DNA of 64,000 bases from Terriglobia bacterium (lineage in GTDB: Bacteria; Acidobacteriota; Thermoanaerobaculia; Thermoanaerobaculales; Thermoanaerobaculaceae): assembly GCA_020073245.1 (NCBI GenBank), contig JAIQFQ010000001.1:418001-482000 (forward strand). Reading direction: 5' to 3'. The notes below the pieces were generated by a model. It was not told the origin of the DNA. It saw only the letters and a list, made by a program, of their open reading frames with translations, and did no database searches. How positions within the stretch are numbered: the stretch's first letter is position 1; every line of letters begins with the position of its first letter. Positions 1,448 to 9,388 of this stretch are shown piece by piece. Position numbers and translations under genes: made by a program.

Positions 1448-2524
1448 ATGCTCAAGGCGCTGCGGCTTGCGGTCCTTGCACTGGTCCTGGCTGCCGCCGG
1501 CTGGGAGACGGCCGTCGCCCCGCCCTCGCTACACTTCCCCCGCGACCACGGGGCTCACCCCGCGTTCCGCACCGAGTGGTGGTACATGACCGGCCAACTC
1601 GGCGACTCGGGAAGTCGCCGGTACGGCTTCCAACTCACCTTCTTTCGGCAGGGGCTCGACCCTTCGGCGCCCGAGCCCGGCCAGTCGGCGCTCCGCGCTC
1701 ACCAGGTGCTGGCGGCGCACCTTGCGATCGGTGAGCTTGGCAGCGGGCGGATGCACTTCGCCGAGCGCAGGCGCCGGATCGGGGGCGGGCTTGCCGGTGC
1801 AGCCGACGACGACCTCGATCTCTTCCTCGAAGACTGGACGATGCGGCGAACGCAGGAGGGGACGGTCGTCATCGCTGCATCGGACCGCGGGACCGCCACC
1901 GCCCTCCGCCTGGAACTCGCGCCGGCCAAGCCGCTGGTGCTCCACGGCGAGGGCGGGTTCTCGCCCAAGGGTCCGGCACCCGGGAACGCCTCCGTGTACG
2001 TCTCGTGGACTCGGCTGGACGCGCGCGGGGTCCTCGCTCTCGGCGGAAGCACCGCGCAGGTTCAGGGACAGGTGTGGTTCGACCACGAGTGGGGGACGAG
2101 CCAGCTCGGCCCTGACATTGCAGGATGGGACTGGTTCGGACTCCGCCTGGCGGACGGGCGCGAGTTGATGCTCTACCGCCTTCGCCGGGAGGACGGTAGT
2201 GCAGCGAGCGAGTCGGCGGGAACGCTTGTCGAGCGTGACGGATCGTCGCGCCACCTCAGTTCGGCCGATCTTGTCCTCGAGGCGAAGACGTGGTGGACGA
2301 GTCCGCGCACGGGCGCCCGCTACCCCGCGACGTTTCATGTCACGCTTCCTCTCGCGGGGCTCGATCTCGAGGTGCGTCCCCAAATACCCGACTCGGAGAT
2401 CGACGGGCGGGGTTCGACCGGAACGGTGTACTGGGAAGGTCCCGTCGGTGTCGCAGGCTCCTCAACTGGGGAGGGGTACGCGGAGTTGACCGGCTACGTC
2501 GCGTCGATGGCCGGGAGGTTCTGA
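1448..2524 (+). CDS. AttH/CrtC lipocalin-like secreted protein
   Basis: 358 aa. It starts at the ATG after GAGGAGGGGTAGC, which supplies a strong ribosome-binding site inside the end of the permease gene. Residues 1-23 look like a signal peptide (LRLAVLALVLAAAG). The body has the hallmarks of the AttH/carotenoid 1,2-hydratase lipocalin-like family: TEWWYMTGQL near residue 40, FDHEWGTSQ near 215 and GWDWFGLRLADGRELMLYRLR just after. Members next to FtsX permeases are usually called AttH; the true substrate of this family is poorly known, so carotenoid hydratase activity should not be assumed. The one-base gap to the permease implies co-transcription and a shared envelope function. Confidence 0.88.
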   Translation: MLKALRLAVLALVLAAAGWETAVAPPSLHFPRDHGAHPAFRTEWWYMTGQLGDSGSRRYGFQLTFFRQGLDPSAPEPGQSALRAHQVLAAHLAIGELGSGRMHFAERRRRIGGGLAGAADDDLDLFLEDWTMRRTQEGTVVIAASDRGTATALRLELAPAKPLVLHGEGGFSPKGPAPGNASVYVSWTRLDARGVLALGGSTAQVQGQVWFDHEWGTSQLGPDIAGWDWFGLRLADGRELMLYRLRREDGSAASESAGTLVERDGSSRHLSSADLVLEAKTWWTSPRTGARYPATFHVTLPLAGLDLEVRPQIPDSEIDGRGSTGTVYWEGPVGVAGSSTGEGYAELTGYVASMAGRF

Positions 2525-2538
2525 CCAGGCGAGAGACT

Positions 2539-2559
2539 GTGGTCAGTGGTCCGTGGTCC
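2539..2559 (+). repeat. GTGGTCM heptamer array, three copies
   Basis: Three consecutive heptamers, GTGGTCA GTGGTCC GTGGTCC. The unit is the same GTGGNNC type as the arrays inside the carboxylase operon at 3438, 3563, 5129 and 5209, which suggests one repeat family at this locus. Confidence 0.75.
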
Positions 2560-2586
2560 GGAACAACACGCCGGGAAGCAAAGATC

Positions 2587-2626
2587 GTTCGAAGGTTCAC
2601 AGGTTCGAATGTTCGAAAGTTCAAAG
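2587..2626 (+). repeat. GTTCRAAR octamer array, five copies
   Basis: Five head-to-tail octamers: GTTCGAAG, GTTCACAG, GTTCGAAT, GTTCGAAA, GTTCAAAG. Several units contain TTCGAA, so the array is partly self-complementary. Confidence 0.8.
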
Positions 2627-2640
2627 ACGACGCGAAATCG

Positions 2641-2750
2641 GGAAAAGGGAAGAAGGTAGAGGGTAGGGAGTCGAAGGTAGAGGAAAGACAACGCGCGGGT
2701 TCCGTCGCCGGGCTTTCCTCTTCCGTCTTCCCTCTCCCAATTCTTCCCGT
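2641..2750. repeat. imperfect foldback of purine and pyrimidine heptads
   Basis: The left arm is purine-rich with 7-base periodicity (AGGTAGA GGGTAGG GAGTCGA AGGTAGA). The right arm is its pyrimidine-rich imperfect complement (TCCTCTT CCGTCTT CCCTCTC). They could pair into a long imperfect stem. It may end transcription of the two converging operons, but there is no clean T-tract. Confidence 0.5.
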
Positions 2751-2919
2751 ACCTGCTCGACCGAAGGCAGGGCGATGGCGGAAGGCGGGTAGCCGCGCCG
2801 CCGAGAGTGGGCCGGATGCTAGGCGCGCGAACTCGTCGCACCGGAGTGTAGCCGGAGGCTACATGAGGATGCAAACGGGCGAGCGCAACAACGCAGACGG
2901 TCCGCTATCGGCAGCGCGC

Positions 2920-3417
2920 CTACTCCACGACGACGAGCACTTGGCCGCCCTCGACCGTGGCCCCCGGGGTCACCATGATCCGCTCGACGCGTCCGGGGCC
3001 CTCTGCACAGATCTGGTTCTCCATCTTCATCGCCTCGAGGACCACGAGCGGCTGACCCGCCTTCACCTCATCCCCCTCGGTCACGCCAACGCTCACGACC
3101 CGCCCGGGGATCGGCGCGCGTACCTCGTGGGGTCCAGCGTGGGCGACGGTGCCGCTGGCCGCCCGTTCGAGCGGTCCCCGCAAGCGCACCTCGAACTGCA
3201 GTTGGGCGAGCGAGACGCGCCAGTGGTCGCGAGAGAGACGCTGACTTGCCACGGCGAAGTTGCGCCCGTCCGGCCAGAACAGGGCGTCGAGGCCAGTGTG
3301 GACCGGGAGCATCTCGACGATGTGCGGGGTGTCGTCCACTATGACCTCCCACGCCCCGTCGAGCCGCCTGGCCGAAACCTCGACCCTGCGCCCGTCGCGC
3401 TCGATCCACCACCTCAT
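2920..3417 (-). CDS. biotin carboxyl carrier subunit of an acyl-CoA carboxylase
   Basis: 165 aa. The C-terminal half is a biotinyl/lipoyl domain with the biotin-attachment motif EAMKMEN (the lysine carries biotin). The N-terminal half (MRWWIERDGRRVEV) resembles the BT region that tethers the carrier to its partner in propionyl- and methylcrotonyl-CoA carboxylases. The listed 267-aa ORF is over-extended: the upstream part translates the heptamer repeats. I take the ATG at 3417, preceded by a G-rich stretch (GGGTGGGGGGTGGGG). It is the last gene of a carboxyltransferase - biotin carboxylase - carrier operon. Carries CO2 between the two active sites. Confidence 0.93.
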   Translation of the reverse strand: MRWWIERDGRRVEVSARRLDGAWEVIVDDTPHIVEMLPVHTGLDALFWPDGRNFAVASQRLSRDHWRVSLAQLQFEVRLRGPLERAASGTVAHAGPHEVRAPIPGRVVSVGVTEGDEVKAGQPLVVLEAMKMENQICAEGPGRVERIMVTPGATVEGGQVLVVVE

Positions 3418-3437
3418 CCCCACCCCCCACCCGCACC

Positions 3438-3465
3438 GTGGATCGTGGTTCGTGGCTCGTGGATC
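3438..3465 (+). repeat. GTGGNTC heptamer array, arm 1 of inverted pair
   Basis: Four perfect heptads: GTGGATC GTGGTTC GTGGCTC GTGGATC. It sits 20 bp upstream of the carrier start codon. Its complement-oriented partner lies at 3563-3590. Confidence 0.9.
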
Positions 3466-3562
3466 GTTCCCCCGCCCGCCCGGTTGACATCTGAGAGTAG
3501 ACGTTCGACTGGCACGACACGCACGCCGGCGTGCCCGCTCAGTGTGGCGCCCTCCGTCGTAT

Positions 3563-3590
3563 GAGCCACAAACCACGAACCACGGGCCAC
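3563..3590 (-). repeat. GTGGNTC heptamer array, arm 2 of inverted pair
   Basis: On the plus strand GAGCCAC AAACCAC GAACCAC GGGCCAC, i.e. GTGGCCC GTGGTTC GTGGTTT GTGGCTC on the minus strand. It begins two bases after the biotin carboxylase stop codon, so the two arms with a 97-bp spacer fill the gap exactly. An mRNA from this operon could form a stem of about 28 bp. Confidence 0.9.
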
Positions 3591-3592
3591 GT

Positions 3593-5113
3593 TCATTTCG
3601 GTTCCCTGCCTTGCGCGAGGCGGCGCCCGGCCAAGCGCCATTCGCGCCCGTCGCGCTCCGCCGCTTCGAACCCATTCTGTGGAAGGTGCTCCGCCTCTTG
3701 GGCCGCCAGCACGGCTGCCGCAACGATCGCCGCGCGCTCGAGTTCGGGATCTACCGCGGCTTCGAGCGCCTGCACCGGCGCGCGCGCCAGCAGCTCGTCG
3801 AGCAGCCCCGTGTGGAGCGCACCGGCCTGGAACTCAGGGATGTCCAACAGGAGTCTGAAGAGCGGCAGGGTGGTGGCGATCCCGGAGATCCGGTACTCCG
3901 TCAGCGCCTGCCGAAGCCGCGCGAGCGCCCGCGGTCTGTCCTCACCCCAGATCACGAGCTTCGCGAGGATCGGGTCGTAGTCCAGCGGCACGAGCGAGCC
4001 CTCCCGGACTCCGCTATCCACACGCACGCCCGGCCCGTGCGGTCGTTCCAGCTGATGGATGACGCCGGGCGAGGGAGCAAACCCCCGGAGCGGATCCTCG
4101 GCGTAGATCCGGCACTCCACGGCGTGGCCGCGTGGCACCACGTCGGACTGATGCAGCGGCAGGGCTTCCCCGAACGCTTCGCGGATCATGAGCTGGGCGA
4201 GGTCCACGCCGTACACGACCTCGGTCACCGGGTGCTCGACCTGAAGGCGCGTGTTGACTTCGAGGAAGTAGAACTCGCCCGACTGCCCGAGAAGGAATTC
4301 CACCGTGCCCGCCGAGCGGTAGCCGGCCGCGGCGGCGACCGCGATCGCCGCCTCGCCCAGGCGGTGGCGCAGCGCCGGGTTGACCGCGACCGACGGGCAC
4401 TCCTCGAAGACCTTCTGGTGGCGGCGCTGGAGCGAGCACTCGCGCTCGCCGAAGTGGACGAGCGAGCCGTGGCGGTCGCCCAGGATCTGTACCTCGACGT
4501 GGCGTGGGCGCTCGATCAGCTTCTCCGCGTACACACGCTCATCGGCGAAGAACGCCTTGCCCTCCGAGGATGCGCGCGCGAACGCCTCCTCCAGCTCGCC
4601 CTCGGTGCGCACGATGCGCATCCCCTTGCCGCCCCCGCCGCCGACGGCCTTGAGGAGAATGGGGTAGCCGATCGCTGCGGCTGCGGCTCTGGCGGCGGCC
4701 GCATCCGCCAGTGGTTCGCTGCCCGGCACCACAGGCACGCCGACGCGGCGGGCCACCTCGCGCGCGGCAGTCTTCGAGCCCAACAACTCGATGACCTCGG
4801 GGGGCGGACCGATCCACACGAGGCCTGCGCTCTCGACCGCGCGGGCGAACCCCGCGTTCTCGGCCAGGAACCCGTACCCGGGGTGGATTGCGCCGGCGCC
4901 GCTCGCCCGCGCGGCCTGGAGTACCGCACCCTGGTCGAGGTAGGAGGCGCGCGCTGGAGCCGGGCCGATGCGCACCGCGAGGTCAGCCGCCAGGACATGT
5001 GGCTGAATGCGGTCCGCGTCCGAGTACACCGCGACGCTTCCATGCCCTAGCTCGTGGCACGCCCGGATCAGCCGCACCGCGATCTCCCCCCGGTTCGCGA
5101 TGAGGATCCTCAT
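3593..5113 (-). CDS. biotin carboxylase subunit of an acyl-CoA carboxylase
   Basis: 506 aa, ATP-grasp biotin carboxylase. It begins MRILIANRGEIAVRLIRACHE, the classic N-terminus. The glycine-rich ATP loop is AVGGGGGKGMRIV, and the carboxylase signatures FGERECSLQRRHQK and EVNTRLQVEHPVTE are intact, followed by the YAEDP motif and a C-terminal biotin carboxylase domain. It is about 50 residues longer than bacterial AccC, which fits alpha chains of propionyl- or methylcrotonyl-type enzymes. The ATG at 5113 is chosen; residues upstream in the ORF track come from repeat DNA. It carboxylates biotin on the carrier encoded just downstream, using ATP and bicarbonate. Confidence 0.95.
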   Translation of the reverse strand: MRILIANRGEIAVRLIRACHELGHGSVAVYSDADRIQPHVLAADLAVRIGPAPARASYLDQGAVLQAARASGAGAIHPGYGFLAENAGFARAVESAGLVWIGPPPEVIELLGSKTAAREVARRVGVPVVPGSEPLADAAAARAAAAAIGYPILLKAVGGGGGKGMRIVRTEGELEEAFARASSEGKAFFADERVYAEKLIERPRHVEVQILGDRHGSLVHFGERECSLQRRHQKVFEECPSVAVNPALRHRLGEAAIAVAAAAGYRSAGTVEFLLGQSGEFYFLEVNTRLQVEHPVTEVVYGVDLAQLMIREAFGEALPLHQSDVVPRGHAVECRIYAEDPLRGFAPSPGVIHQLERPHGPGVRVDSGVREGSLVPLDYDPILAKLVIWGEDRPRALARLRQALTEYRISGIATTLPLFRLLLDIPEFQAGALHTGLLDELLARAPVQALEAAVDPELERAAIVAAAVLAAQEAEHLPQNGFEAAERDGREWRLAGRRLAQGREPK

Positions 5114-5128
5114 CCCCCCACCCACCCC

Positions 5129-5156
5129 GTGGATCGTGGTTCGTGGGTCGTGGATC
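5129..5156 (+). repeat. GTGGNTC heptamer array, arm 1 of second inverted pair
   Basis: GTGGATC GTGGTTC GTGGGTC GTGGATC, 16 bp upstream of the biotin carboxylase start. Nearly identical to the array at 3438, in the equivalent position before the next gene of the operon. Confidence 0.9.
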
Positions 5157-5208
5157 GTGTGTTCGCCACACAGAACCAGCCGCGGCCCAAGAAGAGATCG
5201 TCTTTCTC

Positions 5209-5236
5209 GACCCACGAACTACAAACCACGAACCAC
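5209..5236 (-). repeat. GTGGNTC heptamer array, arm 2 of second inverted pair
   Basis: Plus strand GACCCAC GAACTAC AAACCAC GAACCAC. It starts four bases after the carboxyltransferase stop. Separated from its partner by 52 bp, which includes a small hairpin GTGTG-TTCGC-CACAC at 5157-5171. Confidence 0.9.
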
Positions 5237-5240
5237 GGTT

Positions 5241-6788
5241 TCATAGAGGGATGTTTCCGTGCTTCTTCGCGGGCATCCAGTCGCGCTTGTTGGCGGCAAG
5301 CTGGAGCGCGGCGATCACACGCCGACGCGTCGTTCGCGGCGCGATCACGGCGTCGATGAACCCACGCTCCGCGGCCACCAGCGGGTTCGCGAACTTCTCG
5401 ACGTACTCGCGCACCAGCTCGGAGCGCCGCGCCTCAGGGTCGGGCGCGCTGTCGATCTCCCTCTTGTAGAGGATGTTGACGGCGCCCTGCGGCCCCATCA
5501 CCGCGATCTCCGCCGATGGGAAAGCGAAGTTGAAGTCGGTTCGGATGTGCTTCGATCCCATCACGCAGTAGGCGCCGCCGTACGCCTTGCGGGTGATGAC
5601 CGTGACCTTCGGGACGGTCGCCTCCGCGAGTGCGAAGAGCAGCTTGGCGCCCTGCCGGATGATCCCACCGTGCTCCTGCTCGACGCCCGGCAGGAACCCC
5701 GGCACGTCCTCCACGATGAGGAGGGGGACGTTGAAGGCATCACAGAAGCGCACGAAGCGCGCCCCCTTGACGGAGGCGTTGATGTCGAGCACACCGGCGA
5801 GGTGCGCCGGTTGGTTGGCCACAACCCCGACCGGCCGCCCGGCGAGACGGACGAAGCCCACAACGATGTTGCGCGCGAAGTGGGCGTGGACCTCGAAGAA
5901 CTCCCCTTCGTCCGCCAGCGAGCGGAGGAGCTCCTTGATGTCGTAGGGCTTGTTGGGGTCCTCCGGCACCAGCGCGTCGAGCGCACCGTCCTCGCGGTCG
6001 GGGGAATCCTGGGTGGGGCGCACCGGCGGGTCCGCTGCGTTGTTGGAGGGGATGAACCCCACCAGGCGGCGAATGCTCCCGAGCGTGTCGACGTCGTCCT
6101 CGCATGCGAAGTGGGCCACGCCCGAGATCTGGCTGTGGGTCGAAGCCCCGCCGAGCCGTTCCATCGTCACGTCCTCGTGCGTCACCGTGCGGATCACTTC
6201 GGGACCGGTCACGAACATGTAGCTCGTGTTCTTCGCCATGAACACGAAGTCGGTGATTGCGGGCGAATAGACCGCCCCACCCGCACACGGACCGAGGATC
6301 GCCGAGATCTGCGGCACCACGCCGGACGCGATGGTGTTGCGCAGGAAGATGTCGGCGTACCCGGCGAGAGAGACGACGCCTTCCTGGATGCGAGCTCCGC
6401 CCGAGTCGTTGAGGCCTATGATCGGGACCCCGAACTTGAGTGCGAGGTCCATGATCTTGCAGACCTTCTCGGCGTGCGCCTCCGAGAGCGAACCGCCGAA
6501 CACGGTGAAGTCCTGGGCGAAGACCGCGACCTGCCGTCCGTCGATACGCCCGAATCCGGTGACCACGCCGTCGCCGGGAATGCGTTGGCGCTGCATCCCG
6601 AAGTCGTGGCTGCGGTGGGCGACGAGCCGGTCCACCTCGTCAAAGCCGCCGGGGTCCAGCAGGAGGTCGAGACGTTCGCGGGCGGTGAGCTTGCCCGCAG
6701 CGTGCTGCTTGGAGATGCGCTCCTTGCCGCCCCCGTCCAGGCTCGCCGACTCCAAATCCTGCAGACGCTTGCGGACGTTGTCGCTCAC
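5241..6788 (-). CDS. acyl-CoA carboxylase carboxyltransferase (PccB-like)
   Basis: 515 aa. Two crotonase-fold halves of the carboxyltransferase family. Signatures seen: [42 protein letters not shown], the acyl-CoA oxyanion region [12 protein letters not shown], and in the second half [20 protein letters not shown] and [13 protein letters not shown]. These fit propionyl-CoA carboxylase beta chains; a methylmalonyl or mixed acyl-CoA role is possible. Start taken as GTG at 6788, before SDNVRKRLQ and after GGGGGTGAC; the longer ORF upstream is antisense to the tldD-like gene. First gene of the three-gene operon, divergent from the tldD-like gene with a 62-bp gap. Confidence 0.95.
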
Positions 6789-6850
6789 GTCACCCCCCCG
6801 AACGTTGTCCGGCCGTGCCGGAAAGCGGTCTATGCTATCACGACGGTGCC

Positions 6851-8059: not shown

Positions 8060-9351
8060 GGGCGTCGGCCGACCTGTTGATGGCAGCGCTCCACAGCGCC
8101 TCCGAGGAGCTGACCGGGAAGGGCGTGCGGTTCGAGGTCTTCGCCCGCCTCGGGGAGAGCGCTCGCCTGAGCCGCGACGCCTTGGGCGCCCTCGAGCGGC
8201 GCTCGAGCCGTGAGTTTGGCGTCGGCTGCCGCGTCAGCGGCGGGGGATGTGCCGGGTTCGGTGCCGCCTCCGGAAGGGGCGCGAGAGCTGGCAGGGAGGC
8301 TGCGCGCATCGCGCTCGGGGCGATGCTTCCCTCACCGGATCCGCTCCCCCCGCGCTCGGTGCTCGGTGTCACGGGAACATCCCTTCCCCATGACGTCCCC
8401 GATGGCGACCAGCTCGACGCGGTCCTGGCCGATGTGGCAACGCGCGTGTCCGGCGGCTCGCACGGCGTGAAGCTCGTGCAGGCGCGGATCCTCGCCGGGA
8501 CCTCCGCCGCCGCACTGGCAACGGGGGAGGGGTTCCACGCCACAGCGACGGCCGGAGGCACGGTGATGGAGTTGCTCGTCGCGCCGCCCGAGGGCCCGTG
8601 GCGGCACTTCCACTTCGCGGCCCCGGTGGTCTCCGACCTCGACCCCGCGACGATCACCGAACGCGTTCAGGAAACCGCACTGCTCGCCACCCGGGGACGC
8701 CAACCGGAGCGGCAGCTCGCCGACGTCCTGCTCGCTCCAGCGGTGGCCGCGCCGATCGTGGAGGCGCTTGCGCGCTATCTGACTGCCACGGGCGACAGAG
8801 ACAGGGAGGTGAGGGTCTCCGGGGTCTGGCGCCTGACCGATGACCGTCTCGGACCCGAGGGGCTGCTTCCCCTCCAGTGGGACGGCGAAGGGCTCCCGGC
8901 ACGGCGAATCGAGCTTATCCAACGTGGCAAGGTCGGCGAACGCCTGGCCACCTGGGAGATTGCCCAGCGGATCGGCGGCCGGCCGGGCGGTGCCGTCCGC
9001 CCCTCGTACCGCCACCCACCGGCGGCGGGGCCGGCCAATCTCGTGGTGCACCCCGCCGCCTCGACACCCCGGTCGACGCTGCTCAGCCGGGTGGCAAGCG
9101 GCTTCTACCTGGCGGCGCCGGCCGGGTCCGTTCGCGTAGACGCGACGGAGGGCCGGTTCGGCGTGCATGCCGCGGCGGTTGCGCTGCGGGAGGGCAGGCC
9201 GGTCGCGGCGCATCCGCTCGTCGAACTGCGCGGCTCCTTCCGGCGCCTCCTCGCCGGCCTGCTCGCGACTGGCGGCGAAAGCGAGAGCTTCTCCCTCTCC
9301 TGTGCTGTCACAACCCCTTCGCTCCTCTTCCACCGCCTCGAGATCGCCTGA
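8056..9351 (+). CDS. PmbA/TldE-like partner protein
   Basis: 431 aa. I take the GTG at 8056 ([12 protein letters not shown]), which overlaps the previous stop; the ORF track start at 7978 lies inside the preceding gene. No HExxxH motif is visible, as expected for the non-catalytic TldE/PmbA partner. The C-terminal region contains the family-like PAASTPRSTLLSRVASGFYL segment and ends SCAVTTPSLLFHRLEIA. Divergent from E. coli PmbA, so the family call rests on the pairing plus weak similarity. Expected to form a heterodimer with the upstream TldD-like chain. Confidence 0.7.
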   Translation: MRASADLLMAALHSASEELTGKGVRFEVFARLGESARLSRDALGALERRSSREFGVGCRVSGGGCAGFGAASGRGARAGREAARIALGAMLPSPDPLPPRSVLGVTGTSLPHDVPDGDQLDAVLADVATRVSGGSHGVKLVQARILAGTSAAALATGEGFHATATAGGTVMELLVAPPEGPWRHFHFAAPVVSDLDPATITERVQETALLATRGRQPERQLADVLLAPAVAAPIVEALARYLTATGDRDREVRVSGVWRLTDDRLGPEGLLPLQWDGEGLPARRIELIQRGKVGERLATWEIAQRIGGRPGGAVRPSYRHPPAAGPANLVVHPAASTPRSTLLSRVASGFYLAAPAGSVRVDATEGRFGVHAAAVALREGRPVAAHPLVELRGSFRRLLAGLLATGGESESFSLSCAVTTPSLLFHRLEIA

Positions 9352-9388
9352 GCGACGGGCCTCCCAGCGATCCGGGATGACGGTTGGG

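Follow-up and report, generated by a model that had tools for sequence, protein, structure and literature searches.

Inverted heptad arrays lie in both gaps of an acyl-CoA carboxylase operon

The window, the whole 64-kb stretch of DNA that was analyzed, carries three consecutive genes of an acyl-CoA carboxylase on its minus strand. The first cistron encodes the carboxyltransferase subunit (5241–6809; Pfam Carboxyl_trans, E = 7.7e-196), the start of which was placed at 6788 by our home-made gene finder. It is followed by the biotin carboxylase subunit gene (3593–5113; CPSase_L_D2, Biotin_carb_N and Biotin_carb_C) and, as the last cistron, by the biotin carboxyl carrier subunit gene (2920–3417; Biotin_lipoyl). 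The Pfam matches of all three subunits bear out the operon identity that was given in the initial annotation. Two gaps separate the genes: gap 1, between the carboxyltransferase and biotin carboxylase genes (5114–5240, 127 nt), and gap 2, between the biotin carboxylase and carrier genes (3418–3592, 175 nt).

In each gap lie two four-heptad arrays of opposite orientation. On the mRNA of gap 1, a 5′ arm (5209–5236, minus strand; GTGGTTC, GTGGTTT, GTAGTTC and GTGGGTC, two of the four being exact GTGGNNC) starts 4 nt past the TGA stop codon, and a 3′ arm (5129–5156, plus strand, the CCAC side on the mRNA) consists of four exact GTGGNNC units. A G-rich leader, GGGGTGGGTGGGGGG (5114–5128, minus strand), then precedes the biotin carboxylase ATG. 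Gap 2 is organized in the same manner, with a 5′ arm 2 nt past the stop codon (3563–3590, minus strand; GTGGCCC, GTGGTTC, GTGGTTT and GTGGCTC, three of four exact), a 3′ arm with four exact units (3438–3465, plus strand) and a G-rich leader ahead of the carrier-protein ATG (3418–3437, minus strand). The four arrays of four GTGGNNC-type heptads, their start 2–4 bp past the upstream stop and the leaders before the ATG are therefore as initially annotated, with 13 of the 16 units exact. The opposed array was said to end 16–20 bp before the next start codon; this is correct for gap 2, where 20 nt separate the last CCAC from the ATG on the mRNA, and incorrect for gap 1, where the distance is 15 nt.

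The arms form inverted repeats that are 84% complementary in gap 1 (5127–5157/5208–5238) and 83% complementary in gap 2 (3437–3465/3563–3591). Consistent with the long stems that had been proposed for these paired, intergenic arrays, both gaps folded better than shuffled sequences, whether flanks were included (z = −2.9 for gap 1 and −2.5 for gap 2) or left out (z = −3.6 and −2.6, respectively). The pattern (GTGGNNC)3 has four overlapping matches in the window, every one inside gaps 1 and 2, and none in 100 dinucleotide shuffles. Rfam covariance models returned a single match to positions 2400–5400, far under its gathering score.

Several other repeats were noted nearby. A third hairpin of like kind, built of GGNAGAN-type heptads, occupies the convergent gap downstream of the operon (2640–2738; arms at approximately 2641–2677 and 2702–2738), and an unpaired GTGGTCC array (2539–2560, plus strand) begins 14 nt past the stop codon of a CrtC-like gene. 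Positions 2603–2867 belong to a repeat of ~100–260 bp that is dispersed between genes and distinct from the heptads; it matches locus L013:8555–8914, carries motifs such as GTAGCCGCGCCGCC and has copies in all nine genomes of the genus. Octad arrays of the GTTCGAAG type also occur alongside heptads, at 2587–2626 of the window and at L040:9174–9209 and 9335–9373, and in genome G008 a heptad pair is nested concentrically inside an octad pair. Lastly, a GGGNGGGNGGGG leader (window position 5116; L017 position 3093; others) is found between a 3′ arm and a start codon at a few unrelated junctions.

Heptad arrays are a genus-wide class between genes

Arrays were searched for with a purpose-written period detector and a home-made codon-score gene finder. 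The first version of the gene finder called 29 of 92 arrays non-intergenic, 28 of these being in loci chosen for GTGG matches and several lying inside calls that were open at the locus end; a retrained version was used for the 400-kb counts and all subsequent ones. When 400 kb of the genome that contains the window were sampled at preset positions, 20 of 21 period-7 arrays were intergenic, in DNA that is 88% coding. At a high score threshold, the same 400 kb yielded nine arrays of period 7 and none or one for each of periods 5, 6, 8, 9, 10 and 11. With the retrained gene finder, 13 of 25 arrays in G001 were inside called genes; a single contig accounted for 11 of the 13. Over the whole genome, the pattern (CGTGGNNC)3 had 56 overlapping matches and its reversed control none. 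A shorter GTGG pattern was present in 12 of 39 kin genomes, at 0–307 matches per genome within the genus, and in 19 of 297 genomes of a phylum sample. The search of the genome and its relatives that the initial annotation had called for thus found arrays that are mostly intergenic, often paired and convergent in orientation. The array kind is a genus-wide class between genes and not a feature of the carboxylase operon. Since such arrays recur at many unrelated junctions, we reject operon-specific control; the proposal that they serve this operon or its subunit ratio finds no support.

Manual reading divided the arrays into the families GTGGNNC, GAGTNNA, CAGYNNA, GGTCNNA, AGTCNNA, GGGGNNC, GGNAGAN and others. 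One or two positions of the unit were free in 87 of 122 arrays of at least 27 nt. We also considered two adjacent free positions as the design of every family, but the preference was not significant (distances of 1, 2 and 3 in 19, 11 and 13 cases). The commonest array length, over preset and chosen loci, was 30–33 nt or about four units, and the bins of 4.0–4.5 units held 84 of 163 arrays.

For the GGGAATC repeats of Xanthomonas and their Nostoc counterparts, a G-quadruplex or i-motif has been proposed, and in such an element four G-tracts would explain the four units. GGGGNNC is indeed among the families, and G-rich GGGNGGGNGGGG leaders follow several 3′ arms. However, GTGGNNC, GAGTNNA and CAGYNNA have no fixed G3 tract, the GTGGNNC arrays of the window lack four G3 tracts, and 125 of the 163 arrays lack three G3/C3 tracts. 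The bins of 4.0–4.5 units held 67 of these 125 arrays, as against 17 of the 38 arrays that do have such tracts. Because arrays that lack G3 tracts show the mode just as clearly, the quadruplex is disfavored as a general cause of the four units, and we give this explanation very little credence. The four-unit rule holds in families without G-tracts, hence a cause other than the published G-quadruplex is needed.

The arrays also obey rules of orientation and position. Among the 31 arrays found between genes in the window's genome, 22 had an inverted partner that outscored all 40 shuffles, and three had a direct one. The G-rich arm came first in 32 of 33 partnered arrays from four species; similarly, among the G008 matches listed (100 of 186 and 100 of 263), opposite-strand neighbors were in the order '+−' 42 times and never '−+'. 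Arrays of the G-rich type tend to sit in the 5′ half of a gap and C-rich ones in its 3′ half. This rule was kept by 55 of 72 arrays in co-directional gaps and by 25 of 27 in convergent gaps, a count that pools preset and chosen loci, sets aside four co-directional arrays in which G and C are equally frequent, and leaves 17 of the 72 co-directional arrays in breach of the rule. Divergent gaps in the window's genome contained one of 31 arrays, against 8.4 expected by length. Moreover, neighboring arrays within a species were of matching family in 30 of 51 cases, and the largest value in 200 partner shuffles was 21.

These rules bear on the simplest explanation, that of a plain microsatellite in which any 7-mer slips at random, non-coding DNA tolerates the outcome and no other rule applies. 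In many bacteria, heptads have been reported to outnumber all other long simple repeats (Mrazek 2007, cited in PMC4679880), which agrees with such an origin. Nevertheless, convergent polarity, the matching of arms and the narrow length mode are unexpected from independent slippage; we therefore disfavor the plain microsatellite and regard it as most improbable.

Outside the genus, stretches of four phylum genomes that were chosen for GTGG matches (G174, G292, G168 and G015) contained other heptad arrays and inverted pairs, and unchosen stretches of G017, G053 and G012 contained no period-7 array. Polarity is not the same throughout the phylum, since in G174 the C-rich arm came first in three of four array pairs. 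The GTGGNAC pairs of G174 (L202:5370–5506, L203:598–857 and 4995–5088), a genome from a different family within the phylum, have the opposite polarity; the sequence TTCAAGG recurs at their flank, and they are more like a mobile palindrome.

Heptad families are replaced at orthologous gaps

A close ortholog of the operon was found in seven of the nine genus genomes; G005 and G002 gave none and were left out of the gap-1 comparison. A contig scan contributed one same-genus relative, the other 79 loci being distant or paralogous and hence excluded. Biotin carboxylase is 84% identical to the query in G007 and in NCBR01000038.1 ('Acidobacteria bacterium 37-71-11').

Six of the seven species have paired arrays in gap 1, and one has not. 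The heptads are GTGGNNC in G000, CAGTNNA in G008, CAGCNNA in G004, GGGGTCC in G003, GTGGATC in G007 and GTGGTCC in G001; the 31-nt gap 1 of G006 contains neither stem nor arrays. Gap 2 is a gene overlap in G004 and G006 and contains arrays in the other five species. Even where the biotin carboxylase genes are 92–95% identical (G003, G007 and G001), the gap-1 stems differ in their heptad unit, in their loop and in length, at 193, 127 and 151 nt, respectively. In G001, gap 2 (L045:2455–2652) comprises five four-heptad modules in one orientation, separated by short pyrimidine-rich spacers, and folds worse than its shuffles.

We counted matches to four families (GTGG/CAGY/GGGG/GAGT) in each genome: 61/27/13/121 in G000, 307/0/41/0 in G001, 56/0/18/3 in G002, 15/2/82/23 in G003, 3/93/0/19 in G004, 161/0/151/67 in G005, 0/3/6/6 in G006, 158/3/37/5 in G007 and 9/263/17/186 in G008. 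The gap-1 family is the commonest of the four in its own genome in five of six species. The exception is G000, which has GTGG in gap 1 though GAGT is its commonest family.

Presence and absence of arrays varied at other sites as well. In a wider set of 23 junctions, each with one or more orthologs, 12 (10 co-directional and two convergent) had arrays in some species, and 11, including all five divergent ones, were array-free in every species. At eight of the 12 array-bearing junctions, the site in a sister species is no longer than 31 nt. Among orthologous gaps of equal length, the ungapped register was the best offset tried in seven of 11 pairs, and the heptads differ in most; gap 1 accounted for three of the four failing pairs and L013:10326 for the other. 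For example, gap 2 measures 175 nt in both G000 and G008 and is 57% identical, one arm having changed from the CTGTCRA to the CGANCCA type, and at L016:8609 a length of 83 nt is common to three species, whose units are GGGGTCM, GGGGACC or GGGATCC/GGGGTTC. In gap 1, a length of exactly 127 nt is found in three species and one of exactly 151 nt in two, and gap lengths are 1 mod 3 in all seven species for gap 1 and in all five filled species for gap 2. The exact recurrence of 1 mod 3 lengths in gap 1 hints at some constraint; lengths at other junctions are mixed, so we draw no conclusion from the 1 mod 3 frame. As for a target-site duplication, ATGA or GTGA flanks most filled gaps on both sides, which is equally just a stop plus a start.

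Presence or absence of arrays, and a change of family, between species are clear, and to this extent the mobile inverted element with a variable spacer that was initially suggested finds an echo in our data. Such an element (a MITE, or a REP moved by a transposase) would be inserted as one unit, pair and variable loop together. The short sites in sister species at eight of 12 junctions, the many copies per genome, and the G174 pairs with their recurrent flank and opposite polarity are all in keeping with it. By contrast, the loops of orthologous gap-1 pairs are mostly unlike, no MITE-like constant internal sequence being seen in most of these comparisons, the arms are not inverted copies of one another, and single arrays lean to the same polarity. 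REP/BIME elements are linked with RAYT. The Y1 transposase (Y1_Tnp, PF01797) is encoded in all nine genus genomes, with two matches in the array-poor G006 and one in G000, and RVT_1 was not found in the array-rich G007 and G005, nor in G003. Because these counts do not follow array number, RAYT and reverse transcriptase were rejected as drivers, and we consider a mobile element unlikely.

The arrays are probably homogenized at the DNA level

Another possibility is that the stems act in the RNA, being selected for mRNA processing, stability or coupling so as to tune subunit expression, and that heptads are merely a convenient way to build them. Several observations speak for this: gap 1 forms a hairpin in six of seven species (z from −1.9 to −6.4), the stems of the window's two gaps start 2–4 nt past the stop and end 15–20 nt before the start, gap-1 lengths recur exactly, and the gap-1 arms pair within a species and poorly across unlike families. 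The 5′ arm of G008, for instance, paired with its own 3′ arm at −48.7 kcal/mol and with the 3′ arm of G000 at −11.8 kcal/mol. However, gap 2 folded no better than shuffles in G008, G003, G007 and G001, four of the five filled species (z values of 0.07, 0.67, 0.36 and 3.46), G006 lacks the gap-1 stem, gap 2 is an overlap in G004 and G006, and arrays fill convergent gaps and unrelated operons too. A bias toward G-U was sought and not seen, either at fixed positions (G-U 10, A-C 11, in a low-power set of 23 pairs) or over all stem mismatches of co-directional gaps (141 G-U, 128 A-C, in a set that includes some long non-heptad inverted repeats). Nor was there a unit-by-unit correspondence between arms (616.5 observed, 622.1 as the mean of 300 unit permutations). 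The lack of G-U bias and of unit-by-unit matching, together with the poor folding of gap 2, argues for a repeat at the DNA level, and we hold an RNA-level device to be possible but considerably less probable than not. Quasipalindrome correction is a mechanism of arm-to-arm copying. This too was rejected, given that permuting the units of one arm scored equally well.

A DNA-level homogenized repeat, with an mRNA hairpin that is tolerated or secondary, is the most likely reading. Collectively, the results establish real, intergenic arrays of about four units that are convergent and seldom lie between divergent genes; in some sister species they are missing and the gap is short. On balance we lean toward a genus-wide class of intergenic tandem heptads, similar in kind to those of Xanthomonas and cyanobacteria and usually present as a convergent pair with about four units per arm, that is gained, lost and re-typed at gene ends, homogenized as DNA and tolerated as a hairpin. 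Slippage and conversion might homogenize the units of an array, and could rewrite an array in register with its length unchanged. Selection would purge arrays from coding and promoter DNA, and we propose that arrays consequently remain where a stop codon is followed by another stop or by a start. A convergent pair would form, once transcribed, an imperfect stem of ~30 bp that brings stop and start near each other; this proximity may make insertion into packed operons tolerable, rather than set subunit ratios.

The family matching of neighboring arrays and the within-species pairing of gap-1 arms are not demanded by a purely neutral process. A more far-reaching alternative is a heptad vocabulary peculiar to each species, with which the same sites at gene ends are overwritten throughout the genome, in register and without change of length. 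The dominant family of G003 is unlike that of G007 and G001, and the gap-1 heptad differs among all three species despite their closely similar biotin carboxylase genes. We think this alternative is unlikely. If true, it would imply a trans-acting, genome-wide process, such as directed conversion or templated synthesis, by which both arms are brought to the word in current use, with one or two of its positions left free. The filled, re-typed and empty versions of one operon gap in sister species offer a natural test of hairpin function, and would also allow genome-wide repeat replacement to be followed.

Comparison with known repeat systems

A literature search for acidobacterial heptads yielded, by title and abstract, nothing fitting and nothing closer than the systems named here. 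Palindromes tagged GTAG or CGTC are among the REP/BIME elements (PMC3733652). Such elements are intergenic palindromes of 20–40 bp, in many copies, with a fixed sequence tag. Like them, the arrays are intergenic palindromes in many copies; unlike those fixed-tag elements, they have arms of tandem heptads and loops that are not shared, and no REP-type conserved palindrome with a tetranucleotide tag was found, the arm families differing within and between genomes. The TAACTGA repeats of Beggiatoaceae, cyanobacteria and Bacteroidetes (PMC4679880) are likewise short intergenic heptad arrays over many genes and taxa. As reported there, they are direct repeats, with one inverted case in 170 sets, that lie mostly just before start codons, and related heptamers are rarely repeated in that genome; the arrays described here are mainly inverted pairs.

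The initial annotation knew of no short 7-bp tandem repeats described as paired inverted arrays in one operon; paired inverted heptad arrays are nevertheless on record in two published systems. In the tRNA-Leu (UAA) intron (trnL) of Nostoc, the P6b stem is built from degenerate heptads, TDNGATT or NNTGAGT, and one class has repeatedly been replaced by the other over the whole region at once (PMC4476775). The heptad-built stem and the class replacement are shared with our arrays, but the Nostoc case, as presented in that source, concerns two classes at one locus in a group I intron, whereas here many classes occur between genes and genome-wide.

The closest precedent is the G-rich heptads of Rehm et al. 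(2015), GGGAATC in Xanthomonas and GGGGA(C/T)T in Nostoc PCC 7120 (PMC4692102). According to the account in that source, the Xanthomonas repeats are 89–93% intergenic and form 70 and 75 convergent inverted pairs in two genomes; the repeats lie within 50 bp past a stop codon when on the sense strand and within 50 bp before a start codon when antisense, with few between divergent genes. They prefer four units, a preference linked to quadruplexes formed in vitro, and vary in length and sequence between species. Our arrays share with them the tandem heptads with free positions, the four-unit preference, the intergenic location, the convergent pairs and the position rule. As a near-identical rule set is thus published for GGGAATC, pairing itself is not new. 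The repeats of Rehm et al., as portrayed there, are of one G-tract type per organism; by contrast, many families coexist here, most of them without G-tracts, and the heptad family at one junction changes between species. Within the literature searched, what appears new is therefore the number of families per genome, the four-unit preference without G-tracts, and the replacement of families at fixed positions.
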